From positions 1-64,000 of the forward strand of contig DURM01000023.1 in assembly GCA_012837335.1 (NCBI GenBank): DNA of 64,000 nucleotides, in the 5' to 3' direction. The translations under genes were made by a program, and so were the position numbers. Under the pieces are notes generated by a model. The model searched no databases. It was not told the origin of the DNA and worked only from the letters and a program-made list of their open reading frames with translations. This DNA comes from Bacillota bacterium. GTDB lineage: Bacteria; Bacillota; Limnochordia; Darwinibacteriales; DTU012. Below, one piece after another: positions 6,113-25,472 of this stretch (positions are counted from its first letter, which is position 1; each line of letters starts with the position of its first letter).

Positions 6113-6297
6113 AATCGTCCTCCTCATGCCAAAAAGGCACATAGCTGTAAAGATGGTTAAATTATAATAAACCCAGGTTAATTATACACCCTACCCATTA
6201 ACGATTGCTACGCATATTCTTGCATGTTTAGAGAAATTCCACATATTTTTGCACACAAAGGTTTATTAAAAATGCTATCAAAATGTGGTCGAATGAA
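6113..6297 (-). promoter_or_regulatory. Upstream region of the pectin methylesterase gene
   Basis: This AT-rich stretch holds no gene. On the minus strand a TATAAT sits within TTATTATAATTT near 6160-6166, without a good -35 box. Two words seen upstream of the whole operon recur here on the same strand and in the same order: GATAGCATTTTT (6268-6279) and TGCGTAGC (6207-6214). This suggests a second regulated promoter using the same activator. The motif sharing is observed; the function is inferred. Confidence 0.45.
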
Positions 6298-6342: not shown

Positions 6343-8949
6343 TTAGAGATCACTGATTAGCGGGTTAGTTCCATTTAAATACTCTTCTATATTAGTGTAA
6401 CCATCGCCATCAAGATCGGCAGCCTGATCTATTCCACCATTGGGATCAAAGCCATACTTGATAGCCCACCAGTTGGGAATTCCATCCATATCGCTGTCCA
6501 GAGGCATCCTGAAGCTTCTTAAAAATACCAAACCGCCGACATCGTCCTGAGAATCAATAATGCCTGTTCCTAAACCGGTAGTCTGTCCTCCATAAGCCGC
6601 GGTTCCGGTTCTAACTTCTTCGATAATCCGCTTGTCAATTGCATCGCGGCCCGGCAGTGAAGCACCGGCGTGTTTTAAGACCAGCTCAAATGCTTCCTCA
6701 GCACTGTGAGTTGTCACATGCGGAACCGGAAATTCTTCATCATGCTTTACGTCTTCGGCTCGGTTTACTCTCGGCTGTACTCCACCAGCCCAGTTATCAG
6801 CTGTAATAGCGGGATAGCCATCCACATAGTTATCCGCAATGTACCATTTGCCGCCATTGGAGATCTCAACTATACGATGATTTACACTGCCTCTATTGGT
6901 CCCGGGTCCGGGTTTATAATAGTTGGCAATCATATTGTGGTTGCCGCCCTCGCCGCCATACGTGCTGTTGAAGCCCCAGTTGTAGATTACATTGTTGCGC
7001 ATATCGGTAGCAGGCTGATTGGTATTTCTTTCTCCGTCAAACCGAGGAGTGCGGCTGGAATGGTGAGCCATCAAGTTGTGGTGGAAGGAAGAAAAACCTC
7101 CCCAGATTCCTCCATAGCCATGATTGCCCTTAACATGCACTGATCCCCGCAGACTTTCTGAGATAATTGACCACTGGACTGTCAGATTGTTGGTCAGGTA
7201 AAAACTAACGCATTCGTCCGTAGACCAGCTTGCGGAAATATGGTCCAGGATCACATTAGAAACACCTCTGCCGCCGATGGCATCAGCCTCATATCGGTTG
7301 TAATCGCCCATGCGGAACCGCAAGTACCTGATAATAACCTGATTAGTATTGATGTTAACCGGGGCACCGGCTACTGTGATTCCATCTCCGGGAGCTGTTT
7401 GGCCGGCAATGGTAATGTATGGGTTAATAATATCAAGAGAACTTGTAAGCATAATGTTTCCGGATACGGCAAAGACTACGGTTCTCGGTCCGGAAGCATT
7501 GACAGCTTCCCTTAAGCTGCCGGGACCGCTGTCTTTGAGATTAGTAACAATGTACACATCTCCGCCTCTGCCTCCTACAGTATATCTGCCATATCCTTCG
7601 GCAGTGGGAAAAGCAGGGGTTTGTTCGGCGTTATCATCTGCCATCACCAATCCACGTTCTGCTTTTACTTCTTTCCCGAGAGCGCTGAGCACACTAACGG
7701 CAAAGTCCTGAAGCAGCTGCGATTCATGATCTGTAATTTGATACAGAGTGTCAACTGCTGCTTCGGACTGCTCAGCTGCCTGGTAAACGATTGGGCTTAG
7801 TCTCCATAGAACATCCTCTTCAAATGACTCAACAGCACTTAGGAGATACAGCGCATCTTCTTCAAGTACCGCCTCGCAGTGTTCTAAATAGCGTGCAGCT
7901 GCCAGTTTTACTTGACTATCTGTTTCTTCATCTAACAGCGCATTAATGAAGAATTCGATCACTTCTGATTGATCGGGCTTAGTCTTTTCTAAAGCTAACG
8001 CAAGGAGTACCACGTCTTCTGCAGCTGCCCGAGGATTATTAATCATAGCTAAGATATCGCTAACTAGTGTTTCGTCATAATTGGTGAGTTCACCCAGCGC
8101 ATATATCGCCTGCTCCTTGAGAGTACCCGTGTGGTTTGCAGCAAGCTCCTTCAGCAGCCCGGAAATCTCCGGAGTATAAGATGCCATGCGGGGATACAAA
8201 CCGTCAATTATGGTCCAGAGATTATTCTGCAGCGCTTCACTCGGACTGGCAAATGCTTCGCGAAGCAGTCCAACCGGATCAGATGCTTTGTAAAGATTTG
8301 CGGAGATACCGGAAACAACACCATAGATATTGCGCTTATTGGCTAACTCATCGAAAAGCACTGGAATGATTTCATCGAAGCTGACCTTGAGAGCTGTAAT
8401 CGCCTGATTTGCTTTCCACGCCACCATTGGCTCAGCAGCCATCGAAACTGCTAATGCCCTAATAACTTCAGGATTGACTGCTTTAATTGCCCGCAGCGCA
8501 TCCACCGCCTGAGAACGCACGCCCGCATCTTCCCTGCGGTCCAAAACTACCTTTGCTATCTCATTAACAATTTCCTCTGCTTGTGGCCCTAAGGTATACG
8601 CAGCTTTGGCAGCTCTCGTCCTTGTGGTTAAATTCACATCACGCAGACCTTGAACAATGATGGGCAAACCACCTTCGCCAAGCTGCTCAGCGAAGACTAC
8701 TAAATCATAGCCGATAAAAGATGATTCACTCTGATTGCGCTGCATCTGTTTAACCAAGAGAGGAACAGCAGCTTCACCATAACTGTTCAGCACTGCCAGT
8801 GCTTCACGTTTAACATTGAGATCGCCGCTGGCCAAGTCAGACACAGCCTCTAGAATAATGCTTTCATCCTCTGAATTCAAACCAGCCGCACAAGCTGTGA
8901 GGCCAAGAGCCAAGCAGATTATTAGAGTTAAAATTACCAGTTTCCGCAT
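6343..8949 (-). CDS. HEAT-repeat pectate lyase lipoprotein (PL1-like)
   Basis: The product (868 residues) should cleave polygalacturonate by beta-elimination at the outer face of the membrane. The N-terminus is a lipoprotein signal ending in LTAC, with the lipidated Cys at residue 20. Residues about 30-425 are HEAT-type helical repeats. A pectate-lyase beta-helix follows (about 445-800), with the family pattern FPTAEGYGRYTVGGRGG, VVFAVSG, PYITIAGQTAPG, IIRYLRFR and DHISASWS. The C-terminus has two calcium-binding-like loops, DSDMDGIPNWW (about 818-828) and DLDGDGYTNIEEY (about 845-857), similar to dockerin or thrombospondin-3 calcium loops. The start is set by AAGGAGG before ATG 8949. It shares the HEAT architecture with the adjacent methylesterase, which suggests that both enzymes are assembled or anchored in the same way. 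Confidence 0.9.
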   Translation of the reverse strand: MRKLVILTLIICLALGLTACAAGLNSEDESIILEAVSDLASGDLNVKREALAVLNSYGEAAVPLLVKQMQRNQSESSFIGYDLVVFAEQLGEGGLPIIVQGLRDVNLTTRTRAAKAAYTLGPQAEEIVNEIAKVVLDRREDAGVRSQAVDALRAIKAVNPEVIRALAVSMAAEPMVAWKANQAITALKVSFDEIIPVLFDELANKRNIYGVVSGISANLYKASDPVGLLREAFASPSEALQNNLWTIIDGLYPRMASYTPEISGLLKELAANHTGTLKEQAIYALGELTNYDETLVSDILAMINNPRAAAEDVVLLALALEKTKPDQSEVIEFFINALLDEETDSQVKLAAARYLEHCEAVLEEDALYLLSAVESFEEDVLWRLSPIVYQAAEQSEAAVDTLYQITDHESQLLQDFAVSVLSALGKEVKAERGLVMADDNAEQTPAFPTAEGYGRYTVGGRGGDVYIVTNLKDSGPGSLREAVNASGPRTVVFAVSGNIMLTSSLDIINPYITIAGQTAPGDGITVAGAPVNINTNQVIIRYLRFRMGDYNRYEADAIGGRGVSNVILDHISASWSTDECVSFYLTNNLTVQWSIISESLRGSVHVKGNHGYGGIWGGFSSFHHNLMAHHSSRTPRFDGERNTNQPATDMRNNVIYNWGFNSTYGGEGGNHNMIANYYKPGPGTNRGSVNHRIVEISNGGKWYIADNYVDGYPAITADNWAGGVQPRVNRAEDVKHDEEFPVPHVTTHSAEEAFELVLKHAGASLPGRDAIDKRIIEEVRTGTAAYGGQTTGLGTGIIDSQDDVGGLVFLRSFRMPLDSDMDGIPNWWAIKYGFDPNGGIDQAADLDGDGYTNIEEYLNGTNPLISDL

Positions 8950-8978
8950 AAGTGCCCTCCTTAGAGTCTGGAAAATAG

Positions 8979-9000
8979 GCCGGCAGAGCAATCTGCCGGC
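8979..9000. terminator. GC-rich hairpin between the GH43 and pectate lyase genes
   Basis: A perfect 8-bp stem GCCGGCAG (8979-8986) / CTGCCGGC (8993-9000) with a 6-base loop lies in the 69-base gap. On the minus strand it is followed by CTATTTTCC, a poor U-run. It is therefore more likely a partial terminator or mRNA-processing/stabilising element than a full stop. Confidence 0.5.
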
Positions 9001-9018: not shown

Positions 9019-10542
9019 TCAGCACTTACTTACATCAAACCAGGCAAAATCAGCGTACCCAAGAGATCCTTCACCAGTCGTATTAGTGCTGAACAGACCG
9101 ACCTTTGAGCCAATCCAGCGTCCTTTAACGGCGTGGAGTTCATCCCCCAGCTTAACGTACTCTCGACCATCAAGGCTGTATGTGAAAGTGCATACTGCAG
9201 GCTCTTTTACTTCTACCCTTAAATAAACAGTATTGGTGTCTAAATCAACTGATGCAGTCAGCTGATCTTCATCTTGATCCTTATGGCCTACCCAGCGCTC
9301 AAGCGTCCAACCAGAACCGGATTTGCGGAGCGATAGATAGGAATATTTATCCCCGGTCACGATCAGTCCTGCCTGCTCACTCTCAAGCTGCGGCTGAAAT
9401 GTTAGCTTGGTGGTGGCCGCAAACTCGGGCGCTGGGAATTTTTGTGCGACAATATTCGGTACTTCCCACAGAGTCTTCCGCTCACCGGGAATGTTCTGGG
9501 GAAACAGACGCAGGCCATGTTTGCCCAAACTGTACCAGCTGTCTTTATGGTTGGCAAACCACTGCCACTGGAGACCCAGCTTGTCCTGATCAAACTGGTC
9601 CGATGTGGGAATAGCTGCAATTGGATACTCCCTGCCCACATTCGGCTTTTTATAGCGTAGTACCGGTTCTTCGTTATCCCCCATGATCGGCCAGTCGTCG
9701 ATCCATGCAACCGGCTGCAGGTGAACAATCCGTCCATAGGCGTTCCGGTCCTGAAAGTGGATGAACCAGGATTCTCCAGTTTGGGTCTCTACCCAGCCGC
9801 CTTGGTGCGGTCCGTTGATAGGAGTGCTGCCCTGCCGCAGAACGATCCGGTCTTCGTATGGTCCCCAAACATTTTTCGAGCGGAGCACAGTCTGCCAGCC
9901 ATTGGTTACTCCGCCACCGGGAGCCATAATGTAATAGTAGCCATTGCGCTTGTACATTTTCGGACCTTCGAGGGTCGGATGATCTACAGTCCCATCGAAG
10001 ATAATCTTGCCTTCATCTAAAACGCGGCTGCCGTCGGGAGCCATCTTGTGTAAAATCAGCTTGCTTTTAATACCGCAGCGGCTGGCAGCAAAGGCATGGA
10101 CCAAATAAGCCTGACCATCATCATCCCAGAAGGGGCAGGGATCAATCCAGCCTTTCCCCGGTTTAACGCAGAACAGGGGTGACCACTCGCCGAAAGGATC
10201 TTCGGTGGTAGTCATGTAGATTCCCTCATCAGGCAGACCCACGCAGATCCAAAACTTGCCAGCATGGTAGCGGATAGATGGTGCCCAGATTCCGCAGCCG
10301 TGAAGCGGTTTATCATATCCGGGAAGGTCAACATTTTTAATGGCGTAATTTACCAGCTGCCAGTTGACCAGGTCTTTAGAATGAAGAATTGGCAGACCCG
10401 GAGTGCACTGAAAACTGGAAGCAGTCATAAAGTAATCATCTCCAACGCGGATCACGTCCGGATCAGAATAGTCAAGATGCAAAATGGGGTTGATATAGGT
10501 TCCATCTCCTTGATCTGATACCCATACACTGTTTTTAGACAT
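9019..10542 (-). CDS. GH43 glycoside hydrolase (arabinofuranosidase/xylosidase type)
   Basis: The product (507 residues) has no signal peptide, so it should act in the cytoplasm on imported oligosaccharides, removing arabinose or xylose side groups. The N-terminal five-bladed propeller (about 1-300) has the three GH43 acidic residues: Asp27 in YSDPDVIRV (general base), Asp134 in GWIDPCPFWDD (pKa modulator) and Glu192 in HPTLEGPKMY (general acid). The C-terminal 200 residues form the beta-sandwich typical of GH43 subgroups with a concanavalin-like domain. In this pectin locus the likely substrates are arabinan or arabinogalactan side chains of rhamnogalacturonan I. Substrate choice between arabinose, xylose and galactose cannot be read from sequence alone. 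GGAGG lies a few bases before the ATG, and 22 bases separate it from the GH28 stop. Confidence 0.88.
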   Translation of the reverse strand: MSKNSVWVSDQGDGTYINPILHLDYSDPDVIRVGDDYFMTASSFQCTPGLPILHSKDLVNWQLVNYAIKNVDLPGYDKPLHGCGIWAPSIRYHAGKFWICVGLPDEGIYMTTTEDPFGEWSPLFCVKPGKGWIDPCPFWDDDGQAYLVHAFAASRCGIKSKLILHKMAPDGSRVLDEGKIIFDGTVDHPTLEGPKMYKRNGYYYIMAPGGGVTNGWQTVLRSKNVWGPYEDRIVLRQGSTPINGPHQGGWVETQTGESWFIHFQDRNAYGRIVHLQPVAWIDDWPIMGDNEEPVLRYKKPNVGREYPIAAIPTSDQFDQDKLGLQWQWFANHKDSWYSLGKHGLRLFPQNIPGERKTLWEVPNIVAQKFPAPEFAATTKLTFQPQLESEQAGLIVTGDKYSYLSLRKSGSGWTLERWVGHKDQDEDQLTASVDLDTNTVYLRVEVKEPAVCTFTYSLDGREYVKLGDELHAVKGRWIGSKVGLFSTNTTGEGSLGYADFAWFDVSKC

Positions 10543-10564: not shown

Positions 10565-11815
10565 TTATTCGATTACAATATTCTCACCGTTAGTGACGGT
10601 AATTTCATCACCAACTTGATTGATTACATCCACATTAGTAAACCTGAGATTGGCAACTTGATCAGCAATAATACCCATTTGTGCCATCGGCTTGAGATTG
10701 CGGACCATAGCTGGTGTTCTTGGTTCAGCATCATCTGCCATGTGAATTGAGATATTGTCAAAAGTAATGTCCTGCAGCTTCATTTCCGGCAAGCCCTGGA
10801 GGTAAGCTGCAGCAGCCTGAATTTCACGGGCCGTAATATTGCTGAAGCGAATTCTTCTAAAGCTTGGAGTTCCTTCATCGACGGGACGGGCATTGCGGTC
10901 CTCTACGACCGGATCTCCATCTGCACCACAGCGGTAAAAGAGATTAAGAACGATCGGACAGAATCCGCCTCTCATAATGATATTGTTGACCCTAATATCT
11001 TCAACCACGCCGCCTCTGCCCCGACGGGTTTTCAGGCGGATACCCCGATCGGTACCTTCAAAAATGCAGTTTGAAATAGTTACATTGCGGACATCGCCGC
11101 TCATTTCACTGCCGATTACCACCCCGCCGTGGCCGTGAACCATTGTGCAGTTAGTGATTGTAATATTTTCGCAGGGAATCCGCTTCGGATTTTTCTCAGT
11201 TCCTGATTTAATAGCGATACAGTCATCGCCTACATCAATATGACAGTTGCTGATCCTAACATTTTTGCATGAATCAGGGTTAATCCCATCAGTGTTGGGC
11301 GAATCTGCTGGGTTAACAATAGTCAGCTTATCCACTACTACATTCTCACATTCGATGGGATTTACTGTCCAAGCCGGCGAGTTGATCAGCTTTACGCCTT
11401 CAATCAGAATATCGCGGCTTTCCACAAAGCTGATCATGCGCGGACGGGCGTGCTCCCATTTTTTGTGCCACCAAAAAGAACCCTGTCCATCAAGAGTGCC
11501 GCGGCCTATAACCGCAACGTTCTCAAGACCTTTGCCATAAATCAAAGGCATATAAGCGGAAACATCTGCTCCTTCCCAGCGGGTGACAATTACCGGATAG
11601 TCGTTTAAATCACTGCTGAACTTAATAACGGCCCCTGCTTCCAGATGCAGAGTGATATTGCTTTTTAATTCAATTGGTCCGGTAAGGTAGGTGCCGGCCG
11701 GAACGAGCACTGTGCCTCCCCCCTGCGTAAACGCAGCGTCAATTGCTGCTTTAAATGCTTGGGTGCATACTTGGCTGCCATCTCTTACTGCTCCAAAATC
11801 TAAGATATTAACCAC
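10565..11815 (-). CDS. GH28 polygalacturonase/rhamnogalacturonase, cytoplasmic
   Basis: The product (416 residues) hydrolyses galacturonic acid linkages in imported pectic oligosaccharides. The parallel beta-helix carries all GH28 active-site motifs: NTDG with Asp176, the DD pair at 197-198 in VGDDCIAIKSG, His229 in GHGG, and Arg260/Lys262 in RGIRLKT. The N-terminal NILDFGAVRDG is typical of the family. There is no signal peptide, which points to an intracellular exo-acting enzyme. The GTG at 11815 is chosen because AAGGAGG precedes it by 6 bases; the longer frame overlaps the upstream gene without a ribosome binding site. Whether it prefers homogalacturonan, xylogalacturonan or rhamnogalacturonan is open. 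Confidence 0.9.
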   Translation of the reverse strand: MVNILDFGAVRDGSQVCTQAFKAAIDAAFTQGGGTVLVPAGTYLTGPIELKSNITLHLEAGAVIKFSSDLNDYPVIVTRWEGADVSAYMPLIYGKGLENVAVIGRGTLDGQGSFWWHKKWEHARPRMISFVESRDILIEGVKLINSPAWTVNPIECENVVVDKLTIVNPADSPNTDGINPDSCKNVRISNCHIDVGDDCIAIKSGTEKNPKRIPCENITITNCTMVHGHGGVVIGSEMSGDVRNVTISNCIFEGTDRGIRLKTRRGRGGVVEDIRVNNIIMRGGFCPIVLNLFYRCGADGDPVVEDRNARPVDEGTPSFRRIRFSNITAREIQAAAAYLQGLPEMKLQDITFDNISIHMADDAEPRTPAMVRNLKPMAQMGIIADQVANLRFTNVDVINQVGDEITVTNGENIVIE

Positions 11816-11840
11816 ATTTATCCTCCTTAAGAATGGTGTG

Positions 11841-14135
11841 TTAATCCTGACGTTCAATTTTATCCATCAAGGCCAGCATTCTAACTGCAAATCGGTGGCC
11901 TTGAGTCAAACCCTTCCCTGCGGAAGAAGTTTCATGCCAGCTTCTAGTAAATCCTTTAACCGCCCGCTCCCATAAAACCTTGTCCTGCTCCTTTGTATCG
12001 GAATAATAGTACGCATAGGCAACTGCAGGAGCTAAATTGCGATCGGAGCTGGCTTTGTAATCTCGATGAGCGGCATGATACGCCCAAGCGCCCGGAGGAT
12101 CGATCCATCCGTATTCTGAAAATGCTCGTCCCGCTCTAACAATCATTTCTCTTACCCGCTCATCACCGGTGGCTTGATAGTACAGTACCAGCGAATCAAT
12201 TATAGGACTTCCCATCAGCATTCCAGCAAAGCCATTACGCTCAAAAAAGCCTGTAAAGAGTCCATCTTGGTTCTGCAGTTCCAGCGCTATATCAACTAAC
12301 GCGGCAGCACTTTTAAGATATTCCTCTTTAGGAATAACATGATAAGCTCCCATTAAAGCAAGATTTGTCCAGCCCCACTGCCGTTCGGTGCTGTACATAC
12401 GAGCCGCTGGAACTTGTCCTAAGGCAACCTTTTGATACTGCTCCCAAGTCAATTCTGCCCACCGATCCGCCACTATTAAAGCCGCGTCGCGGGCTGTATA
12501 ATCGCCAGAAAAAGCGTAGTATTCAAAAAGTCCCTGCACCCACGCGTGGGAGCCGAGTTTGCCGGAGCCCGCAGAACTGTGTCCGAGAACATCGGGATCA
12601 AAGTCATTGTCGTGCTGATAAACCATTCCCTGCTCAGATCCCGCTGTGATAAAGTCGATATCAATCATATGTCTGGCTGCTGGCAGAGCAAACAGATCAT
12701 ACCACTTGCGTCCACCCCCACGCAAAAACATCAGCATCCCCACATGGGGATAGTCGTATTCGCAGTTGTTCCAAGACCCAAGCCTGCGGTATGAATCATC
12801 CCCAAAATTGCGATCTCCATAAAGTCTATGTTCAGCTCGCTTCTTCATCAGAGCTTGAAAATCTAATTCGATGGCATGCTCATATTCAGGGTAGCGCTTA
12901 AAGTTTTGACAGGAAAGATCACCCAGCGCACCACTTTCCGCATACCAATCCCAAGGCGCCAGCGCTAGCAGCGGCGCATGGCATTGGTTCATTACAGACG
13001 GAAGTTGACCGCCATCAGGATTAGGCGTATGAAAATACAGCATAAACTCATGGGTCCGGGATTCACCCTGCCTCAATGCATAGCTGTGCTTGACTTGATT
13101 TCCCGGTAAAAACGAATCAAAAGTGCGGGATGAAGTCGGCAGCAGCCCCAGACTGAAGCCGGTCTGCCCCAGCTCTAAGCTCTTGGGATACTTCTCCCAG
13201 AAATGGCGAACTGCTGCGGAAAGAGCCCAGCCAGATTCTGTTTCCACCGTTGCCCACCCAGCAAACTGTCCAGAAGTCTTTGCATCTTGTTTGGCAAGGT
13301 TCCCGTGGTAATACTCATCGGGACTATCGTGAAGAACGCCAAAAGAGCCTTCATTACTGGCTGCACAATACTTCTCAATTAAATGATTATCATGATATAC
13401 CTTTATATGATTCGCTTGGAGAGGAATTAAAAACTCTAATCCCTTAAGTTCGATCGCAGATCCTAAATTGCGGATTGTATGTAAAACGCGTACAGCAGAA
13501 CTATCGCGATGGACGGTAATTCTGATAATATACATCAAATTAGATGCCTGTCCGCTGGAACTTTCATAGTAACCGGTAAAACAAATAACGGCTCTTTCTG
13601 AACCATTATCATCAATCATTATCTCTTTAGCTGATCCGATATCAAGCTGTTGAGAATCGACTGTTACTTTCGAACCAATAAAACCGTTATAAGTGTCGAG
13701 TCTAATCCATCCTGCTTCAGTTTTAAGTTTCAGATCATCAAATAGTGACCGGCAGCTCCGGGAAACAGAAAAACCCAACTTTCCTGTATCAACGCATATA
13801 TCTCCGGATTTTGCAACACTGGCAATAAACTGGTCGGTAGTAGATCCAGATGAATTCAGATCGAGCCAGAAAATCCTGGTTTCATCAGCACTAACATCTG
13901 CGACAAAACTGATTAATACCCACTTCAAACTACCGTCCGGCCACCACGAAAGAGCTTGAAATTGAGCCGGTACATATGCACCTGATTCGCTAAAAAGAGC
14001 TAACTTAGCGGTATCTCGCACCCGCAGATGCTGGGGAAGCGGCAGCCCGTTGGATATTAGTTCCTTGTTCCGGGTAATCGAGCTGTCATTAGTAACTGTA
14101 AGCTTAATCCTGGGAATTCTGTCATTGACACGCAT
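11841..14135 (-). CDS. Exo-rhamnogalacturonan lyase, PcRGLX/YetA-like (PL26-type)
   Basis: The product (764 residues) resembles the PcRGLX/YetA family, whose characterised fungal member is an exo-acting lyase on the rhamnogalacturonan I backbone. The N-terminus (RIPRIKLTVTN, then GLPLPQHLRVRD and WWPDGSLKWVLISF) matches the RIFT-barrel first domain. A long beta-rich central region follows. The last 350 residues are helical, with the pattern of an alpha/alpha toroid (GSHAWVQGLFEYYAFSGD, RQWGWTNLALMGAYHV). No signal peptide is present, so it should work in the cytoplasm. It lies 25 bases before GH28 and completes a set able to take rhamnogalacturonan I oligosaccharides apart. Family assignment is from recalled domain patterns, and activity is inferred. 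Confidence 0.78.
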   Translation of the reverse strand: MRVNDRIPRIKLTVTNDSSITRNKELISNGLPLPQHLRVRDTAKLALFSESGAYVPAQFQALSWWPDGSLKWVLISFVADVSADETRIFWLDLNSSGSTTDQFIASVAKSGDICVDTGKLGFSVSRSCRSLFDDLKLKTEAGWIRLDTYNGFIGSKVTVDSQQLDIGSAKEIMIDDNGSERAVICFTGYYESSSGQASNLMYIIRITVHRDSSAVRVLHTIRNLGSAIELKGLEFLIPLQANHIKVYHDNHLIEKYCAASNEGSFGVLHDSPDEYYHGNLAKQDAKTSGQFAGWATVETESGWALSAAVRHFWEKYPKSLELGQTGFSLGLLPTSSRTFDSFLPGNQVKHSYALRQGESRTHEFMLYFHTPNPDGGQLPSVMNQCHAPLLALAPWDWYAESGALGDLSCQNFKRYPEYEHAIELDFQALMKKRAEHRLYGDRNFGDDSYRRLGSWNNCEYDYPHVGMLMFLRGGGRKWYDLFALPAARHMIDIDFITAGSEQGMVYQHDNDFDPDVLGHSSAGSGKLGSHAWVQGLFEYYAFSGDYTARDAALIVADRWAELTWEQYQKVALGQVPAARMYSTERQWGWTNLALMGAYHVIPKEEYLKSAAALVDIALELQNQDGLFTGFFERNGFAGMLMGSPIIDSLVLYYQATGDERVREMIVRAGRAFSEYGWIDPPGAWAYHAAHRDYKASSDRNLAPAVAYAYYYSDTKEQDKVLWERAVKGFTRSWHETSSAGKGLTQGHRFAVRMLALMDKIERQD

Positions 14136-15661: not shown

Positions 15662-16591
15662 CTATTGTCCTGTTATACCTGTGCGCTGGATACTTTCAAC
15701 GAAGAACCGCTGCAGACAGATATACAGGATAACAACTGGAGCAATCACAAGCAGACTACCAGTGTTGTTTAATAATGAAGTCTCAGGCATAGAAGATCCC
15801 CAACGATCCCCCAGCACACTGAATGGAAGCTTATCCAGCATCATTGGCAGAGTAACTGCATTGCCCAAGAACATCTGGGTCATGTAATAGTCATTCCACT
15901 GCCAGACAAACGCGAATAAGAAGACGATTACCATCGACGGCACAGCTGCTGGCAGCATAATCTGTATGAAAGTGCGGAAAGTGCTTGCTCCATCCACATA
16001 GGCTGCTTCTTCTAAATCACGGGGCATTCCCTTAAACGACTGCCGCATAATATAAATGAACAAACCATTCCGCGGGCCAGTAGCAGTAGCTGCCATGATC
16101 ACTAGCGGCCACAGCGAGTTGATCAGGTTGATGCTGGTTGGCAGTGCACCCAATAAATCGAAATAACGGAAGTTTAGATATAAAGGAATTATAAACAGCT
16201 CGGGTGGAACAATCAGTGTAATAATCGCTAGAGTAAACAGGACATTTGCCCCTTTGAATTTAAAGCGGGAAATCCCATAGGCCACAAGTGTACTGGATAC
16301 TAACTGGAGGGCACTGACCAGAAAAGCTAATTTTATAGAATTCCAAAATGCCAGCGGGTACTTCATATAGTTCCACGCCAATTCATAGTTACGGAGTGTT
16401 GGATTGCGGGGAATCCACGCTACAGTGGTATCCCACAAATCATTCCGCGACATAAACGAAGATGCAATCTTGCTTAGGATCGGGAAGATAACAATGTAAC
16501 ACACCCCGATTAAAATCACAGCGCGAGCAAATACCCAAATATACTTGAAGAAATTGTTTCTTATTATTTTCCTTCGGTTAGTGACAGCCAT
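15662..16591 (-). CDS. Sugar ABC transporter permease (MalG/LplC type)
   Basis: This 309-residue membrane protein forms half of the import channel for oligosaccharides. It has six predicted membrane helices and the EAA loop AAYVDGASTFRTFIQIMLP, which docks to the ATPase. The N-terminal VIFPILSKIASSFMS resembles second-permease subunits of carbohydrate importers (CUT1 class). It lies 27 bases after the other permease gene. No ATP-binding subunit is encoded in the locus, so it presumably uses a shared MsmX-like ATPase. Confidence 0.92.
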   Translation of the reverse strand: MAVTNRRKIIRNNFFKYIWVFARAVILIGVCYIVIFPILSKIASSFMSRNDLWDTTVAWIPRNPTLRNYELAWNYMKYPLAFWNSIKLAFLVSALQLVSSTLVAYGISRFKFKGANVLFTLAIITLIVPPELFIIPLYLNFRYFDLLGALPTSINLINSLWPLVIMAATATGPRNGLFIYIMRQSFKGMPRDLEEAAYVDGASTFRTFIQIMLPAAVPSMVIVFLFAFVWQWNDYYMTQMFLGNAVTLPMMLDKLPFSVLGDRWGSSMPETSLLNNTGSLLVIAPVVILYICLQRFFVESIQRTGITGQ

Positions 16592-16618: not shown

Positions 16619-17530
16619 TTATTCATGATAGAACACAAGCCGGGAAAAGATCAGGAATGTTACTCCCAAAAACAGACCAATAATCAGGAAGTAAACCCAG
16701 GACATAGCCGAGCCGATCCCATATCCCAAAGAACCAAAGGCTGCTGACCGAATGGTAGTTACCATCTGATTCGATGTCGATGTAAAATAATCGACAACGG
16801 TATAAACAATATTAGTTAAAATTAATGGACTTACCATCGGCAGTGTAATCAGCCAGAAGTTTTCCCAGGCTGTAGCACCTTCTACTTCTGATGCTTCATA
16901 CAAAGATCTCGGGATAGCCTGCAGTCCTGCCAGGAGAACGAGAATCTGGATTCCTGAACTGCGGATAATGTTTGGCAGCGATTCAATCGCCAGTAAGATG
17001 TTTTCGATCAAAGCGGGCGGCAGCTGAAAATTAGACAAATACAGACTCAAAGATGGTGTAACCAAAAACGTTGAGGCTGCCTCCATACCATATTCTAAAA
17101 TTCCGGTCATATAGTCCTCGGTTTCGATCTTAAGAATAATACCTGAAGTCATGACAATTGGCAGGAACAAAATTGTCCGCGCTAATAAACGTCCTCTAAA
17201 CTTCTGATTTAAGACAATCGCTGCAAAGAAGCTGAAGATCAAAACCCAGAAAACATTGCTTACCATACCCATAATGGTTTCAGTTAGATCCCGCACAAAA
17301 GTGGGATGAACCCTAAGGATATGGCGGTAATTCTCTAATCCAACAAAGTTCAACTCGTAACCAGATCTTGTGATAACCAGTTCATGAAAACTAAAGATAG
17401 CTGATAAAATTGATGGATAGAGAAACACGAACAGGAAACCCAGGATAAACGGCAGCGAGAACAAATATCCGGCTACTACGTTTTGCTGCCTGAGTGATAA
17501 TCCCTTCCTTCTCACTTTACGCTTTTTCAT
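16619..17530 (-). CDS. Sugar ABC transporter permease (MalF/LplB type)
   Basis: This 303-residue protein is the first permease subunit of the same CUT1-class importer. It has a basic N-terminus (KKRKVRRKGLSLRQ), six predicted helices, the NFVGLENYRHIL motif typical of MalF/UgpA-type subunits, and the EAA loop YEASEVEGATAWENFWLITLP. Its start ATG overlaps the TGA of the DUF5696 gene by four bases, showing translational coupling with that protein. Confidence 0.92.
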   Translation of the reverse strand: MKKRKVRRKGLSLRQQNVVAGYLFSLPFILGFLFVFLYPSILSAIFSFHELVITRSGYELNFVGLENYRHILRVHPTFVRDLTETIMGMVSNVFWVLIFSFFAAIVLNQKFRGRLLARTILFLPIVMTSGIILKIETEDYMTGILEYGMEAASTFLVTPSLSLYLSNFQLPPALIENILLAIESLPNIIRSSGIQILVLLAGLQAIPRSLYEASEVEGATAWENFWLITLPMVSPLILTNIVYTVVDYFTSTSNQMVTTIRSAAFGSLGYGIGSAMSWVYFLIIGLFLGVTFLIFSRLVFYHE

Positions 17531-20325
17531 TGCTCTCCCCCCATCACCAGATAGCCTTTTGCGTTGATCCGCAAACCGTCAACTTCCACAGGATCGCTGT
17601 TGTAGTTGACGATAATCTTGGTACCATCTTCATAGGTGGTTGCAAAAACTTGTTCATCCAGCTGCTGATGGTTGATTATCGTCTGACCCTGCAGTGGAGC
17701 CAAGACCTGGTTAACTTCATTATAAATCTCGACAGCAAGCTCTTTCCAAGTCCGGTAATTAATCGACAGCAGGTATTGGAATGGCGAATCCTTAAGAATC
17801 GATGAATCCTCGTAGCTCCAAATAAAATATGGATTAGCTCCTACTTCCAGCAATTTTAGTTTAGCGTCATCAAAATCAACTGCATAGTTAAGAGCGGCAC
17901 CGGCGTAGTTTACATATCCTCTGGCAACTATCTGATAAAATGGCACAGCTTGGTCACTGATGACAAAACCACTGCTGTCTACCGGCATATTGAGAATATG
18001 GTCTGCGTGGACTAATCCGTAAACATTAGCGCCATTCATCATCAGCGAATAGGATTTAGCAAGTTCGCCAATCTCTGCACCGATGATCCTTTTTGCCTGC
18101 TGGCGGTCTACCAACAGCTCATCATTTTCTCGGAAATCTGCGTTTAAGGCGGTACCGAGATCTCTCAGCGAGAGCCCGTTCAAACCATAAGCGCTGTAGT
18201 CGCTCTGGAAGCCCTCTATTTGGGCTTTTAAGCTTCTCGGCGATACCACCCAGGCATTCGTTCCAGTATTAAGTACCCGCTGCACATAATTCTTATTCAG
18301 GGAGTATGCCGCATCATTTGTCGAATTAAATCCGTCATTGATGGTATCTCTGGCAGCAATGGTCTGCGTTACATCCGGGAACATAGCTATCCCTTTAGCT
18401 CGCAGGGATTCTACGAGACCGGTAAAGCCGGTTTGCCCTCCCAGCGCCTTTTCGATTTCCACTTTATTTGGATAGATGTGCTCTACACCACCGGCAAGCC
18501 ATCCAGTGTAGCGCAGCTTAATATTGTCAATACCATCATCAAGCAGCTCATCAACAATTGCCTCAGCCTGCTCGAAAGTAGTCAGCGGTACAATTACTTC
18601 CCGCGGAATTCCGAGAATTGGCTGCTTGCGGTGAACGCCGCCAACCAGCTCAAGGTAAAATGGTATTTCTTGATCAGACTCAGTTTTTGCTAAACCAAAG
18701 TTGTCAACTAAATACTCTTGATATAAACGAGCCATACCGGCATAGTTTGCCTCTTCGCCTTCAAGAAACTGATAGCGAATCTGCAGATCTGAATCCACCA
18801 GCCTCTGTTGATAGGTGTTAATATACGATCCGCCACCTCCGCGGGAACTTACCGCTAACTGTACGCTGCCAACAGGCATTACATTAAAGCGGGCATAAAC
18901 TGTATCCACAGGATTAACTCTGCCGGCTGTTTTTACTACAATGCTGGCAACCGCATCGCCCTCTTCAATAATAGCGAAGAACCCTGCGTCACCACGCTTC
19001 ATACCAAAGACTGGCAGCTGCTGCGGTTGGAAATGGCGGCGCAGCTCAAGTTCGGATTGAATATCAGTGGTTGTGCCGAGGTTAGCTAAGTTTTCACCAT
19101 AGAGACGGTGCTGCAGTGTTAAATCGTCAGTCGCCCTAACCCGATCGCCGGAAAGATAGATCAACGATCCGGAACCATCCGGAATGAGAATATAGCCTGA
19201 TTCCGCTTCATCTGGAGCACCGAAATAAGGCAGCAGATTGATAGCATGGAGCGGAAAAGTTACTTCTCCGCCACCGCCAATACCCCCAAATGCTTCCATT
19301 AAACGCTCGTCAGTAACTACCGTCCAGTGAACTCCACGCATACCCCAGATATCGCTGGTGAAGGCATTCTTAGGATAAACCACTTCATCCATAGGAACGC
19401 GTACCACTAAACTGTCTCCGTCTAACCGATACTCAACAGGAATCTTAAAGTTTTCAACTTTCTGCTCTGGCGGAACTAAACCATAAGCAGTATTGTCGTC
19501 CTGTTTATCATAAGGAGTGTATCCTGCTTCCTTTAGAATCGCAGCCATATCTTCTAAATCCCACGGAAACATATTTTGCTTGCGCACAAATGTGGGATTA
19601 TCAATAAAGGCGGCGATATCTTCAGGTTTTAATTGAGTAATCGAACCAATATCATTACGGTTGTTCCGGATCTGCTCCAAAATGTGTCTGACAAAGTCAC
19701 CTTTTTGCCGTCCGCTTAAGTTGGTTTCCGGCATGATTGTATACGAACCAAATAAAGCATTCTTATCGAGATTAGTAATATTTACCCGCTGGTAATCTTC
19801 CGGCATCTCTTCCATTGTAAAGCGGACAAAATTCTTGCGGACAAAATCTCTATCCCTTTGGTTTTCAATGCTTGCAAGTACTTCGTTGAGGCGTGCTTCA
19901 CTAATCAGCACAGGGACATAATCCTCCTGATTCCACACCTGTCCGAACACATAGTCGATCCTGACGCCGTCATCGATTGGTGTTATTTCAAACTGCTCAT
20001 AAGCAACACTATCTGCTGCATTGTTCATAGTGCGAGCATCATCACTAGGAGTAAAGTATTCAATGAGTACCTGCTCCTGGGCTTTTTGGTTATTGGGATT
20101 GCTGTACCAAACCCGCCCGCTAGTGCGATTAACTACTGCAAATTGAGTAGTTTGCTCGTTGAGGTACAGCTGCAGAAATTCATTCTCAGCTGCTAACTCA
20201 TAGCCGCGGGGCAGCTCTGGAACTAGAGATTCATCTGCTGCGGCAGCTGCCCCAGGTATTAAGCTGAGTGCAGCAACTACTGCGCATAAAACTATCTGCC
20301 TGATAAAACGCGATCTGAATTGCAC
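17527..20325 (-). CDS. DUF5696 secreted protein, possible glycoside hydrolase
   Basis: The product (932 residues) matches the DUF5696 family often found beside sugar ABC transporters in Paenibacillus-like genomes; its function is not established. A signal peptide (about 1-30, ending AAAAA) is followed by beta-rich regions (about 40-135 and 290-520). An alternating alpha/beta region (about 555-830) looks like a TIM barrel, with strand-end motifs IKLRYTGWLAGG, AMFPDV and GLSLRDLG. A small C-terminal beta domain (about 890-930) follows. The order beta-sandwich, barrel, beta-domain is common in glycosidases that use a superfamily-like mutarotase domain. Asp651 and Asp722 are candidate active-site residues by position only. 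The start is GTG with TAGGAGG upstream. It overlaps the first permease gene by four bases, so it is part of the transporter unit. It could instead be a carbohydrate-binding accessory protein. Confidence 0.75.
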   Translation of the reverse strand: MQFRSRFIRQIVLCAVVAALSLIPGAAAAADESLVPELPRGYELAAENEFLQLYLNEQTTQFAVVNRTSGRVWYSNPNNQKAQEQVLIEYFTPSDDARTMNNAADSVAYEQFEITPIDDGVRIDYVFGQVWNQEDYVPVLISEARLNEVLASIENQRDRDFVRKNFVRFTMEEMPEDYQRVNITNLDKNALFGSYTIMPETNLSGRQKGDFVRHILEQIRNNRNDIGSITQLKPEDIAAFIDNPTFVRKQNMFPWDLEDMAAILKEAGYTPYDKQDDNTAYGLVPPEQKVENFKIPVEYRLDGDSLVVRVPMDEVVYPKNAFTSDIWGMRGVHWTVVTDERLMEAFGGIGGGGEVTFPLHAINLLPYFGAPDEAESGYILIPDGSGSLIYLSGDRVRATDDLTLQHRLYGENLANLGTTTDIQSELELRRHFQPQQLPVFGMKRGDAGFFAIIEEGDAVASIVVKTAGRVNPVDTVYARFNVMPVGSVQLAVSSRGGGGSYINTYQQRLVDSDLQIRYQFLEGEEANYAGMARLYQEYLVDNFGLAKTESDQEIPFYLELVGGVHRKQPILGIPREVIVPLTTFEQAEAIVDELLDDGIDNIKLRYTGWLAGGVEHIYPNKVEIEKALGGQTGFTGLVESLRAKGIAMFPDVTQTIAARDTINDGFNSTNDAAYSLNKNYVQRVLNTGTNAWVVSPRSLKAQIEGFQSDYSAYGLNGLSLRDLGTALNADFRENDELLVDRQQAKRIIGAEIGELAKSYSLMMNGANVYGLVHADHILNMPVDSSGFVISDQAVPFYQIVARGYVNYAGAALNYAVDFDDAKLKLLEVGANPYFIWSYEDSSILKDSPFQYLLSINYRTWKELAVEIYNEVNQVLAPLQGQTIINHQQLDEQVFATTYEDGTKIIVNYNSDPVEVDGLRINAKGYLVMGGEQ

Positions 20326-20350: not shown

Positions 20351-22549
20351 TTACAGCCGGTAATTTATCTCGGTTAAAATCGTGATGATAAACCGGCTGA
20401 CGTGATCTACTACACTCGTAAACAGCAGTCCAACAAACAGCGCCGCTGCAATTCCGCAGATAATCAAAATCGCTGTTATGATAGTCTTGCCCATGGTGTA
20501 TTCGTGCAGTGTCATTGTACCAATAAGCAGCAGCATCACGGTCCAGGCGACTGAAATAACGCGAACTAAGGTCAATAAACTGCCTTCTCCCTCAATTAGG
20601 AAGTGGCTTACGGCGGTTGAAGGTATATTCAAGATAATAACCGGTGTTAAGGCATAGGCAGACATGATAAAGATCTCTTTTAAGGTACCCTTGCCTTCCA
20701 TCAGGGTAGTGAACGCCCAGTTTACTCCCACCCACAGTAAGAACGGAACTAGAATACTGGTTGCATCGACAAACAGATTCACTTCAGTTACATCCAGCGT
20801 ATTAAATGTAAAGGCTGTGTACTGGCGCATGAAAACATAAGCGAGAACTGTCATGACTAATAAAGTATTTGCTGCGGCAGTAGTACCCCGTTTCTCATGC
20901 TTAAGGTCCCAAAATCCATCAAACGGATGAAAAATAACATGAAGTGAATACAGCAAGCTGTCCACAAGCTTCCTAAACGAATATTCACGCTTAACCGCAT
21001 GCGGAATGCTGTTCTCCGGCATTGATTCCATCTGTGCACTTAATTCTGCGAGCGCTTTCGGATTATCAGCAAGGCCAATAAACTTACTGAAGCGTTTACC
21101 CAGCTTCAGTTTTGGTCCAATAAACAAAAAAATAAAGACAGCAAAAACGCCGGTCATAATCCAAGCAATATTATCGCCAACAAATTTCTGGCGATGAGCA
21201 GAAAATGCGTCTGAATAACCAGTGCGGTTTTGACCTAATTGATAAAACCGCATTGCTTTATCATAGTCCTGCTCCAAGAGCGCGGTTGTAGCAATCCAGT
21301 TATACGCAATCTCGAAACCGGGGTTCTGGTTTAAAACATCCTGCCAAACTTCGGCAGCATCAAAATAATAACCGCGGTCGTAAAAATCAATGGCCTGGTG
21401 GATAGCCTGAGTATACGCAGTGGGTTCAAATACAGTTATACCCCTGTTATCCAAAACAACCAGTCTGTTGCCATCCAGCTCTGCCAAGGCTACTGGATTG
21501 CGGAAGCGACCAAGAACGTCGCCGATTCCACCGAATACATAGAGCAGGTCACCGTTGCGATCATAGGTGAACACTCGCCCTTTTGCTCCATCAAGTACAC
21601 TGAAAACGCCATTTTTTCGGCCTAAAACATCTACAAAAGAGGATTGGGCAATAAATGAACTTCCAGTGATCTCAACATCACCGATAATCGGCAGCTGGCT
21701 GACCCGGCGCATAATATCTTTTCCGGCCGGATTAAGAAGCTTGACAATTTCTTCGTTTCCATCAGCAGCAGTGTCGCGCAGAACCGCATACAGCATACCG
21801 TCCTCGTTGATGCCAAAATTCGCATACTCAATAGGCAGAAACAGCTGCAGCTGAGCCCGCTGCTCATCACTGGCCAGCCGCATCCAAAACACATCCACGG
21901 CTGAAGGAGTTACCCGGGGAGCTCCAATAAACCCGAGAAATTTACCTTCTTTATCAAATTGAAAAATCCCCTCATAGACATTAGCTGCGATAACATAAAC
22001 TCTGCCTAAGGGGTCAACTTCGATTTTAAGAGGCCGATAAATGTAATCATCTTTGATCAACGCTCTGTCAGAAGATTCCGGTTGCCCGATTATGCGGAGC
22101 AAATTCCCATCCGCGTCTAGAACAACGATTCGAGCATTGTCAGTATCGGCAATGTAAACTTCGCCAATATCGCTGACTGCAATTCCGGAAGGATTGCGGA
22201 ATGTATCATCACTGCCATTATTTATAAAGGTTGTAATCTCCAACTCTAACTCTAACTCCGCAGACAAGCGGATGATGCGGTTGTTTCCTGAGTCAGCAAT
22301 AAAGACCTTCTGGTCCGGACCGACTGCTAAATCCTGCGGCCTTCTTAAAGCACCGACACCAAGGGCTTGTCCGTCTACTAATAATGAAGGGAAATATGCT
22401 TGTGGTGCCGGCACCCGTTCGCCCCAGAAATTAAAAAGGTAACTCTCATAAGGTGCAGCTGCTGATGCTAGCTTCACCACAGCTAATAAAAGCAATAAAG
22501 TTACCGAAAAAGTAGTCCATTTTTTGTTCCTAGTAAACAAGGCGCACAC
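20351..22549 (-). CDS. Membrane protein with NHL propeller, TPR and YIP1 domains
   Basis: This 732-residue protein is the first gene of the pectin operon. An N-terminal signal or anchor helix (about 12-30) precedes an NHL-type beta-propeller (about 65-375), with repeats such as PQDLAVGPDQKVFIADSGNNRI and PSGIAVSDIGEVYIADTDNARI. A pair of TPR-like helices (about 380-440) and a membrane helix (about 461-478) follow. The C-terminal YIP1-like membrane domain has several helices (about 560-730). The propeller should face outside. Its role is unknown: it may sense or bind sugars or partner proteins at the membrane, or assist the transporter. Its position and co-occurrence with DUF5696 and the permeases argue for a dedicated part in uptake. 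GTG start, with AGAAGG upstream. Confidence 0.8.
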   Translation of the reverse strand: MCALFTRNKKWTTFSVTLLLLLAVVKLASAAAPYESYLFNFWGERVPAPQAYFPSLLVDGQALGVGALRRPQDLAVGPDQKVFIADSGNNRIIRLSAELELELEITTFINNGSDDTFRNPSGIAVSDIGEVYIADTDNARIVVLDADGNLLRIIGQPESSDRALIKDDYIYRPLKIEVDPLGRVYVIAANVYEGIFQFDKEGKFLGFIGAPRVTPSAVDVFWMRLASDEQRAQLQLFLPIEYANFGINEDGMLYAVLRDTAADGNEEIVKLLNPAGKDIMRRVSQLPIIGDVEITGSSFIAQSSFVDVLGRKNGVFSVLDGAKGRVFTYDRNGDLLYVFGGIGDVLGRFRNPVALAELDGNRLVVLDNRGITVFEPTAYTQAIHQAIDFYDRGYYFDAAEVWQDVLNQNPGFEIAYNWIATTALLEQDYDKAMRFYQLGQNRTGYSDAFSAHRQKFVGDNIAWIMTGVFAVFIFLFIGPKLKLGKRFSKFIGLADNPKALAELSAQMESMPENSIPHAVKREYSFRKLVDSLLYSLHVIFHPFDGFWDLKHEKRGTTAAANTLLVMTVLAYVFMRQYTAFTFNTLDVTEVNLFVDATSILVPFLLWVGVNWAFTTLMEGKGTLKEIFIMSAYALTPVIILNIPSTAVSHFLIEGEGSLLTLVRVISVAWTVMLLLIGTMTLHEYTMGKTIITAILIICGIAAALFVGLLFTSVVDHVSRFIITILTEINYRL

Positions 22550-22921
22550 CCCAACCTTCTCATTTTTTGCTTGTTAAAGATATCTTAATAAAAGCGGACA
22601 AACAATCAATATATGTGTAGTTCGGTTAAATGGTACCACATTTATTAGTTGTTAGCTACGCAGAAAATGCTATCTTGAAAAAAAGTACACATTTTTTGAT
22701 ATCCCTCAGCTAATATTTTCCTAAAACCCCAGCTTATGCTTCCTGATACTCTAATTATGCCATCATGGGCATATAACTGCAAATCTTTATTTTTCCATTG
22801 TCTTGGAGTTTTGGGTAAATTATCAGCTTACTGCCATTTTATATCGAAAGCCAATTCTAGACTTTGCATTTTATGTTCCAACACCTATGCTGCGCCCGGC
22901 AGCTGACAGTATATAGTTATG
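22550..22921 (-). promoter_or_regulatory. Promoter region of the pectin operon (no gene)
   Basis: This 372-base AT-rich region lies upstream of the operon's first gene and downstream of the membrane protein gene. I see no gene in it. On the minus strand GATAGCATTTTCTGC (22660-22674) adjoins TGCGTAGC (22655-22662). The first shares an 11-mer with the araC promoter, and both words recur upstream of the methylesterase gene. On the plus strand TTTGCATTTTATG (22863-22875) is a further near match to the araC site. A weak promoter-like pair TTGTTT/TATCTT lies on the minus strand closer to the gene. The region is a good candidate for AraC-family activation. Confidence 0.5.
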
Positions 22922-23402: not shown

Positions 23403-25472
23403 TTACGCTTCTTTTTGTCTTGCCGCAATAATGTCCTCAGCAATATTTTGCGGAACCTCTTCATAGTGGCTGAATTCTGTTGTAAATGAGCCTCTGCCTT
23501 GAGTTATTGAACGCAGGTCAATCGCATACTTAAACATTTCACTCATAGGCACCTGAGCCCGGATTACCTGATTTCCGCCCTGGGGCTCCATACCTAAGAT
23601 CTTACCGCGTTTCTTGTTGAGATCTCCCATTACATCGCCCATGAAACTCTCAGGCACTACAATTTTGACATTCAAAATTGGCTCCAGCAGCACTGGATTG
23701 GCATCGGCAAATCCTTTCTTCAAGGCCATAGACGCCGCAATCTTAAACGCCATCTCCGAAGAGTCTACACTGTGGTATGAACCATCGTAAAGCGATACTT
23801 TCAGGTTAACAATCGGATAGCCGGCAATAATTCCTTCCTCCATTGTTTCCCGAATACCTTTTTCAACCGCCGGGATATACTGACGGGGAACAGCTCCACC
23901 GAAAATATTGTCAACGAACTCCAGCTCATCGTCGCCTTCGCCGCTGCCCGGACTGATTTCGAGCCATACATGGCCGTATTGACCTCTACCTCCAGATTGT
24001 TTCTTGTGCTTACCTTCAACTTTGACTGAACCGCGGATTGTTTCACGGTAAGGAATGGAGGGAGTTGAAAGCTCTACTTCAGCACCAAACTTGCTGTGGA
24101 GACGGCTGCACATGATTTCCAAATGCAGATCGCCTAAACCGGAAATCAGAATTTCACTGGTTTCAGCACTCTTCTCAACCTTAAAGGTTGGGTCTTCTTC
24201 TGCAAGACGCGCCAAGCCATTACCGATTTTATCTTCATCGCCTTTTGCCAGAGGCTGCACAGCCATTGTCATAACTGACTGCGGGAATTCGATTCCCTTC
24301 GGTTTTACTGTAGCACCTTTAACAGTAAGTACATCATTGGTGTTGGTTTCCTGCAGCTTGGCCACAGCACCGATATCTCCTGCGGAGATTTGAGTAACCG
24401 GAATATTCTCTTTACCTTTAATAACAAACAGTTGACCGACCCGCTCATCGCGTCCAGCACTGAGGTTGTGGACAGTGCTGTCTGATTTCATAGTTCCTGA
24501 TAAAACCTTAAATAATGTTAGTTTGCCGACATACGGGTCTGCAAGGGTTTTAAATACTAATGCGCACAGCTTGTCGCCTTCAGGTGAAATCTCTACTTCA
24601 TCTCCAGACTTGGTATCAATGCCAACATCGATTCTTTCCTTTGGACTCGGTGCACATTTGATGCAGTAATCTAAGAGTTCAGAAACACCCACATTTGCCG
24701 AAGCGGAGCCGCAGAATACTGGAACAACATCTCCGGTTCTGGTACCAACTGCCAGAGCGGCTTCAACCTCTTGATCAGTTAATGCCTCGCCTTCAAGGTA
24801 CTTCATCATCAGTTCATCATCGGTTACGGAAACAGCTTCGATGAGAGCATCTCTTGCCATTTCCACATCATCAGCCATTTCTGCAGGGATATCACCAACG
24901 GTAACACTGTTTCCATCCCACAGATAAGCTTTCTGCTGAATCAGATCGATATGACCGCGGTAACTATCAGCAGTGCCGATTGGAATCTGTACCGGAACAA
25001 TCTTCTGACCAAACATTGATCTCAACTGCTCAACTACGCGATCAAAGTTTGCATTCTCCCGCTCTATCTTGTTGATATAGATCATGCGCGGGATATTATT
25101 CTGCTCAGTCATGTCCCATGCTTTTTCGGTTCCAACCTCAACTCCGGCAGAAGCGCAGACCACAATCAGCGCTGTGTCTGCAACTCGAAGAGCAGCAGTA
25201 ACGTCACCAACAAAATCGAAATATCCCGGAGTATCGAGGATATTAATCTTATGGTCTTTCCACTCAATCGGAGCCATGGACAAATTAATACTGATCTGCC
25301 GTTTAACCTCTTCGGGATCGTAGTCGAGGGTACTTGTACCGTCATCGACGCGGCCGAGCCTGTTAATACCCTTGGATACAAATAACATCGCTTCTGCCAG
25401 CGATGTCTTGCCTGCACCACTGTGGGAAACCAGGGCTACATTACGTAATTTGTCAATACTGTAGTTCTTCAC
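23403..25472 (-). CDS. Elongation factor G-like GTPase (EF-G2 type paralogue)
   Basis: The product (689 residues) has the full EF-G domain order: GTPase domain, beta-barrel domain II (around 300-370), and domains III-V with FGGAVPRQYIPAVEKG and the C-terminal GDVMGDLNKKRGKILGME. The P-loop reads SHSGAGKTS instead of the AHIDAGKTT of standard translocase FusA, which marks it as the second EF-G type common in Bacillota. Its role there (ribosome recycling, stress or an unknown step) is unsettled. Switch II has DTPGYFDFV. The G4 guanine-recognition motif is NKIE rather than NKxD, a conservative but unusual change. It is monocistronic, with its own terminator, and is not near str-operon genes, which also argues for a paralogue. 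Confidence 0.87.
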   Translation of the reverse strand: MKNYSIDKLRNVALVSHSGAGKTSLAEAMLFVSKGINRLGRVDDGTSTLDYDPEEVKRQISINLSMAPIEWKDHKINILDTPGYFDFVGDVTAALRVADTALIVVCASAGVEVGTEKAWDMTEQNNIPRMIYINKIERENANFDRVVEQLRSMFGQKIVPVQIPIGTADSYRGHIDLIQQKAYLWDGNSVTVGDIPAEMADDVEMARDALIEAVSVTDDELMMKYLEGEALTDQEVEAALAVGTRTGDVVPVFCGSASANVGVSELLDYCIKCAPSPKERIDVGIDTKSGDEVEISPEGDKLCALVFKTLADPYVGKLTLFKVLSGTMKSDSTVHNLSAGRDERVGQLFVIKGKENIPVTQISAGDIGAVAKLQETNTNDVLTVKGATVKPKGIEFPQSVMTMAVQPLAKGDEDKIGNGLARLAEEDPTFKVEKSAETSEILISGLGDLHLEIMCSRLHSKFGAEVELSTPSIPYRETIRGSVKVEGKHKKQSGGRGQYGHVWLEISPGSGEGDDELEFVDNIFGGAVPRQYIPAVEKGIRETMEEGIIAGYPIVNLKVSLYDGSYHSVDSSEMAFKIAASMALKKGFADANPVLLEPILNVKIVVPESFMGDVMGDLNKKRGKILGMEPQGGNQVIRAQVPMSEMFKYAIDLRSITQGRGSFTTEFSHYEEVPQNIAEDIIAARQKEA

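Follow-up and report, generated by a model that had tools for sequence, protein, structure and literature searches.

What does a membrane protein that joins an NHL propeller to a YIP1 domain do at the head of a gene run for pectin breakdown? The question arises from a window of 64,000 nucleotides, by which we mean the whole stretch of Bacillota DNA analysed (contig DURM01000023.1, positions 1 to 64,000), and the original prediction had offered three roles for such a protein, namely a sensor, a transporter partner or an assembly platform for HEAT-bearing enzymes.

An NHL-YIP1 protein at the head of the pectin gene run

The features of the run and of its upstream region are as follows.

23403-25472: EF-G-like gene upstream of the operon, named from its sequence by eye
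23383-23352: terminator-like hairpin of the EF-G-like gene, 14 pairs and a T run
22550..22921 (-): region upstream of the NHL-YIP1 gene, 372 nt, three promoter-like matches (consensus only)
20351..22549 (-): NHL-TPR-TM-YIP1 gene, GTG start, 732 aa (ORF, Pfam, hydropathy, AlphaFold2 model)
17527..20325 (-): DUF5696 protein, 932 aa, signal-peptide-like N-terminus, GH129-like fold (Pfam PF18952, E 8.6e-184)
16619..17530 (-): ABC permease of the module clade (perm1), 4-nt overlap with the DUF5696 gene
15662..16591 (-): ABC permease (perm2), BPD_transp_1 at Pfam E 6.8e-16, EAA loop
14252..15616 (-): solute-binding protein (SBP), SBP_bac_8 at E 7e-6, slightly under the curated cut-off
11841..14135 (-): PcRGLX-like (rhamnogalacturonan lyase-like) cargo enzyme (Pfam)
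10565..11857 (-): GH28 cargo enzyme (Pfam)
9019..10542 (-): GH43 cargo enzyme (Pfam)
8979..9000 (-): terminator-like hairpin separating the GH43 gene from the PelZ-like gene (by consensus only)
6343..8991 (-): HEAT and PelZ-like pectate lyase, signal-peptide-like N-terminus (Pfam)
3812..6142 (-): HEAT and pectinesterase, signal-peptide-like N-terminus (Pfam)

The NHL-YIP1 gene does stand first in this run, since the EF-G-like gene with its hairpin, a 123-aa DUF3792 ORF and the 372-nt region lie upstream of it in that order. It had also been described as the first gene before transporter genes, which is accurate as to its first place, but the next gene encodes DUF5696 and not a transporter. The hairpin just before the PelZ-like gene means that both HEAT enzymes may form a separate unit. 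The window perm1 gave no BPD_transp_1 match at E 0.001 and only weak matches to permease models; by its sequence the perm1 clade is divergent, and relatives of the window perm1 carry an EAA-like loop.

Pfam, the AlphaFold2 model and hydropathy agree on an NHL propeller, a transmembrane helix and a YIP1 domain in a single protein, as had been predicted. The NHL match (E 2.7e-16, 59.1 bits against a cut-off of 20) and the Yip1 match (PF04893, residues 537-706, E 9.6e-15, 55.3 bits against 28.6) are both well above their thresholds. For the predicted TPR helices, the model, built with 71 sequences as input (mean pLDDT 89.3, pTM 0.81), has paired helices at 378-438 that continue into a long helix at 442-477 and are TPR-like in shape, but the TPR profiles stay below their curated cut-offs (TPR_2, E 0.024, 15.2 bits against 27; TPR_16, E 0.036, 15.0 bits against 32.7). 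The modelled propeller resembles solved NHL propellers (8j72, E 2e-18, TMt 0.77), and the seven hydropathy peaks fall at 14-32, at 461-479 and, for the other five, in the YIP1 part. Hydropathy and charge probably place the propeller and the TPR-like helices outside, followed by a single crossing, a short cytoplasmic linker of variable sequence and the YIP1 bundle; as the genome encodes Omp85, this outside is probably the periplasm. In a 71-row alignment, conservation is highest in the helix preceding the YIP1 bundle (537-556, majority fraction 0.81) and lowest in the linker (481-536, 0.24), and a helical insert of the propeller (208-241) is well kept, with a mean majority fraction of 0.66. The gene has no internal direct repeats of 18 nt or longer.

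Ten modules in one genome with different enzyme neighbours

Within the same 2.4-Mb, 98% complete genome we found ten copies of the NHL-YIP1 gene, the window copy and nine paralogues, and all ten are accompanied on the same strand by a DUF5696 gene and a pair of permease genes. The order NHL-YIP1, DUF5696, perm1, perm2 is kept in nine of these modules, and in the remaining one (L013) NHL-YIP1 comes last. DUF5696 genes occur in this genome solely within the ten modules. Likewise, the perm1 clade has ten members in the genome, each in a module and each scoring at least 130 bits to the window perm1; the next permeases score 84 and 75 bits, and the 10-kb stretches around these two held no NHL-YIP1 or DUF5696 gene.

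The attribution to pectin is true of the window and a few other copies but does not hold generally. In the stretches fetched, pectin-type genes adjoin three of the ten modules (window, L010 and L015), other modules adjoin GH106, GH31, GH115, alpha-galactosidase or arabinofuranosidase genes, and no enzyme gene was found in the stretches examined for L009 and L016. The neighbouring enzymes are thus for pectin, rhamnosides, xylan, alpha-galactosides or arabinose. We therefore rejected a pectin-specific role, which these neighbours and a xylan operon in Anaerocellum bescii (below) both contradict; because the protein accompanies the same importer genes whatever the polysaccharide, it is probably a working part of the importer.

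The importer resembles ATPase-sharing sugar transporters

An EAA-like pattern is present in 53 of 70 perm1 and in all 67 perm2 proteins, and an SBP gene lies near 57 of 64 complete modules, with one in the window. No ATPase gene was found among the module genes identified, and a single ATPase in the genome exceeds the curated cut-off for the UgpC/MsmX type (C19:26917-28047), on another contig and away from the modules. We strongly infer that the module permeases use this shared MsmX/MsmK-type ATPase of the genome. In the portion of PMC5730181 available to us, MsmX powers several pectin-sugar importers in Bacillus subtilis; for A. bescii, sources including the available part of PMC8579813 describe MsmK as serving CUT1 importers, its deletion stopping growth on oligo- and polysaccharides.

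The modules thus resemble CUT1 importers that work with MsmX or MsmK (AraNPQ, CycB-GanPQ and YtcQP-YteP of B. subtilis and the CUT1 importers of A. bescii) in having two EAA-loop permeases and an SBP, no ATPase gene in the cluster, and one MsmX/UgpC-type ATPase elsewhere. They differ from these in two strictly linked additions, NHL-YIP1 and DUF5696, and many of them also have a second permease pair with an SBP of about 960 aa. The accessible part of PMC5730181 mentions no components like NHL-YIP1 or DUF5696 for the B. subtilis importers.

NHL-YIP1 and DUF5696 are linked across Bacillota genomes

Contigs of GTDB genomes yielded at least 546 confirmed NHL-YIP1 relatives, from Limnochordia, Halanaerobiales, Caldicoprobacter, Mahella, Paenibacillus and others, and the best 80 of these (L047-L126) were laid out together with the window and nine stretches of its own genome (L009-L017), giving 90 loci from which the 5-kb stretches L001-L008 and L018-L046 were left out. 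Some of the 80 loci overlap or come from one genome (L052/L101 and L072/L073 are examples) and so are not independent. In these 90 loci, which include the best 80 of at least 546 relatives, DUF5696 is the next gene in 87, with two at a contig edge and one in another order, and both permeases are present in all 67 loci that have at least 4.8 kb downstream. The surroundings of homologues are therefore not random: the same permease clade and DUF5696 stand alongside, and the earlier idea of a transporter partner is well supported by this.

The same linkage was seen by genome. Among 100 related genomes (own included), DUF5696 was above its cut-off in 46, and NHL-YIP1 matched at E<1e-20 in the same 46; among 398 genomes of the phylum, for which at most two NHL-YIP1 and at most three DUF5696 candidates per genome were scored, DUF5696 matched at E<1e-100 in 37 and NHL-YIP1 at E<1e-60 in those 37 and in G306, all three limits having been set after the tables were seen and the tallies made by eye. 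The 8.5-kb contig of the exception, G306 (L154, C103), carries an NHL match at profile positions 11-202 only and has no DUF5696. With the limit at E 0.001, the NHL query picks up other NHL proteins as well (56 of the 100 and 138 of the 398 genomes give a match), and weak DUF5696 matches occur in two further genomes of the 100 and nine of the 398, two of these nine being barely above the cut-off.

The two halves of the protein are encoded by separate adjacent genes in 12 of 108 loci (three of the 90, which include the best 80 of at least 546, and nine of 18 others), and their staying adjacent when split suggests that they work together. By comparing distance matrices for 57 loci, we found that the NHL and YIP1 parts correlate with DUF5696, perm1, perm2 and SBP at r of 0.56-0.74, against a permutation maximum of 0.15 (500 permutations each). 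The SBP matrix correlates with the NHL and YIP1 parts at 0.72 and 0.60, about equal to DUF5696 and the permeases, so the matrices single out no partner. Adjacency and tree agreement would also be expected from operon co-inheritance without contact. Separately, in genome G433 (L142:9200-10400) the YIP1-encoding frame overlaps an apparent 5' extension of the DUF5696 ORF, the true start of which seems to lie further downstream, with a lipobox-like motif after it.

Correspondence with a xylan operon of Anaerocellum bescii

L138 has a single, exact copy of the 20-mer XynR operator published for the xylan degradation locus, 151 nt ahead of a gene for a large SBP, and the 14 ORFs after it match the order xloEFG-X-GH129-axoFGE-xynF-xynE-xynD-xyn10A-xynX-xynB, which is the order of the A. 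bescii locus in the available text of PMC8579813. With the operator and the gene order among the agreeing features, we infer that genome G245 is A. bescii. By this match NHL-YIP1 is the unnamed fourth gene, X, and DUF5696 is the fifth gene, labelled GH129. The same part of that paper describes the xloEFG-X-GH129-axoFGE operon as induced on xylan and cellulose, with its proximal genes among those raised roughly 10- to 100-fold on xylan relative to cellobiose, and reports control by XynR and AraR. In the part available, that account gives X no name and labels DUF5696 as GH129, and it does not describe the conserved core or the range of substrates with which the core is found here.

A second importer is a frequent associate

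A second importer, made of an SBP of about 960 aa and its own permease pair, is present in 45 of the 90 loci (again including the best 80 of at least 546) and in 16 of a more distant set of 18; its usual place is ahead of the NHL-YIP1 gene, and in some loci it comes after the permeases. Examples of the large SBP gene are the following.

L138:2376-5237: SBP of about 960 aa, with a C-terminal solute-binding domain at residues 566-853
L017:11074-13977: SBP of about 960 aa
G000:C52:17110-19959: SBP of about 960 aa, in the window's genome

One of four copies of the large SBP with permeases in the window's genome, that on C52, stands without NHL-YIP1, so the second importer is an associate and not part of the core; its place in the same operon of many relatives means that the complete system could consist of two importers. 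To the eye, the N-terminal half of the large SBP has the look of repeated carbohydrate-binding sandwiches, with no Pfam name. In genome G219 an IS110-type transposase gene (L139:5887-7212) lies between perm2-like fragments of the second pair (HMM matches at 4862 and 7074), suggesting that the permease gene was interrupted.

DUF5696 has a glycosidase-like fold and variable acidic positions

The DUF5696 model (pLDDT 87.9, pTM 0.85) is closest in fold to GH129 glycosidases, both NagBb (5wzr; Z 31.3, rmsd 4.1, 575 residues aligned) and ZgGH129 (5opq; Z 31.3, rmsd 4.2, 585 aligned), followed by GH101 (Z about 21) and GH36 (about 19). In sequence, its profile matches 5opq at E 1.1e-7 over the whole sequence, a match composed of weak stretches, and likeness to GH129 is limited to brief segments, one at the N-terminus, one in the early barrel and, weakly, one at the C-terminus. 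A sub-profile of residues 640-860 (54 of 61 alignment rows) gave no significant PDB sequence match and no GH129, and Pfam Glyco_hydro_129 gave no match in the window DUF5696 at E 0.001, this model being silent in 199 genomes and in controls alike.

Catalytic positions were inferred by spacing from the aligned NagBb stretch, not by residue-level superposition, with D435 and E478 as what we take to be the NagBb catalytic residues. As the sub-profile holds no GH129 and the Pfam model is silent even in controls, the mapping rests on spacing and on these two NagBb residues. For ZgGH129, D486 is taken from the title of PDB entry 8rzk. The inferred nucleophile position, D722, is acidic (D) in 45 of 90 sequences and the inferred acid/base position, 764, is acidic in 45 of 90; both are acidic in 20 of 90, about the independence expectation, and in 23 of 90 when about two residues of slack are allowed. 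Other acids are better conserved, namely D730 (84 of 90), E827 (82 of 90), E559 (D or E in 83 of 90) and D791 (D or E in 76 of 90), and the invariant residues R741, N813 and P795 are not candidate nucleophiles.

DUF5696 thus has the overall fold of GH129 glycosidases but appears to differ from NagBb and ZgGH129 in that the positions assigned to catalysis by spacing do not hold a conserved pair of acids, and it gave no Pfam GH129 match. The apparent lack of such a pair makes glycan binding more likely than catalysis across the family, and the sequences suggest that DUF5696 is a glycan-binding pseudo-glycosidase. The conserved acids D730 and E827, and also E559 and D791, could in principle act in catalysis. 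DUF5696 might then be an active glycosidase that NHL-YIP1 anchors or positions beside the importer, as the modelled fold, the weak-stretch match to 5opq and the GH129 label in the available part of PMC8579813 would allow; with the acidic pair in so few sequences, and neither a PDB match over 640-860 nor a Pfam GH129 match, we consider this somewhat unlikely, and it is the strongest of the alternatives. Annotation of DUF5696 as an active GH129 enzyme should await an assay. Our search of the open-access (PMC) literature found no paper on DUF5696.

A proposed role for NHL-YIP1

NHL-YIP1 tracks DUF5696 and the two permeases whatever the sugar, which makes it a candidate accessory subunit of an MsmX-powered oligosaccharide importer. 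We accordingly favour, as a reasonably probable reading of these sequence comparisons, that one distinct clade of oligosaccharide ABC importers has NHL-YIP1 as an obligate accessory subunit in the membrane. Here, the extracytoplasmic DUF5696, with its GH129 fold and no conserved catalytic pair, would bind or present glycan, the NHL propeller would dock DUF5696 and/or the SBP at the outer face, the YIP1 domain would pack against the permeases within the membrane, and the shared MsmX/MsmK-type ATPase would power them. NHL-YIP1 perhaps joins DUF5696 and the SBP to the permeases. We dropped an earlier form of this idea, in which the propeller tethers an unanchored DUF5696; the initial hint had been a lipobox on SBPs, absent from most DUF5696, in lineages without an evident outer membrane, which we take to be monoderm, and several such lineages proved to have a DUF5696 with its own N-terminal hydrophobic segment or lipobox.

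The strict pairing with one permease clade fits a dedicated chaperone equally well, and the YIP1 domain could instead help to fold, insert or pair the permeases outside the working importer. We regard such an assembly or stability factor as unlikely, as a large extracytoplasmic propeller with a conserved helical insert exceeds what an insertion factor needs, and DUF5696 is just as strictly linked. The sensor of the original prediction, with a propeller that detects glycans or transporter load and passes a signal inward, is quite improbable: an extracytoplasmic domain is indeed joined to a membrane domain, and the gene is first in its operon at many loci, but neither Pfam nor the model revealed a kinase, regulator or other cytoplasmic signalling domain fused to the protein, the cytoplasmic linker is its least conserved part, and the A. 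bescii operon is, in the available part of PMC8579813, reported to be under XynR and AraR. A platform holding HEAT-bearing pectin enzymes at the membrane is highly improbable, since these enzymes share the gene run in the window but are set apart from the rest of it by the terminator-like hairpin, and relatives of them lie beside only three of the ten modules (window, L010 and L015) in the fetched stretches.

Returning to the accessory subunit, NHL propeller proteins and YIP1-domain proteins are each known families, and both domains are present here; neither their fusion nor its link to an ABC importer clade was found described in the open-access (PMC) literature. An ABC importer is already known, and the obligate pair of NHL-YIP1 and DUF5696 is new. 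The usual description of a sugar ABC importer lists an ATPase, two permeases and a binding protein; if one clade always carries two extra parts, one an integral membrane propeller protein and the other a protein of glycosidase fold that perhaps only binds, the model of plant oligosaccharide uptake in these bacteria is incomplete. A further and more tentative possibility is that two permease pairs, the large SBP fusion, DUF5696 as a pseudo-glycosidase receptor and NHL-YIP1 as a hub form one complex. If true, this would be an unrecognised class of multi-subunit importer, common in Bacillota, for long plant oligosaccharides, with a role roughly that of SusCD-like systems in Bacteroidota. The system is apparently present in A. 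bescii, a tractable biomass degrader, and its unnamed gene X now has a clear hypothesis.
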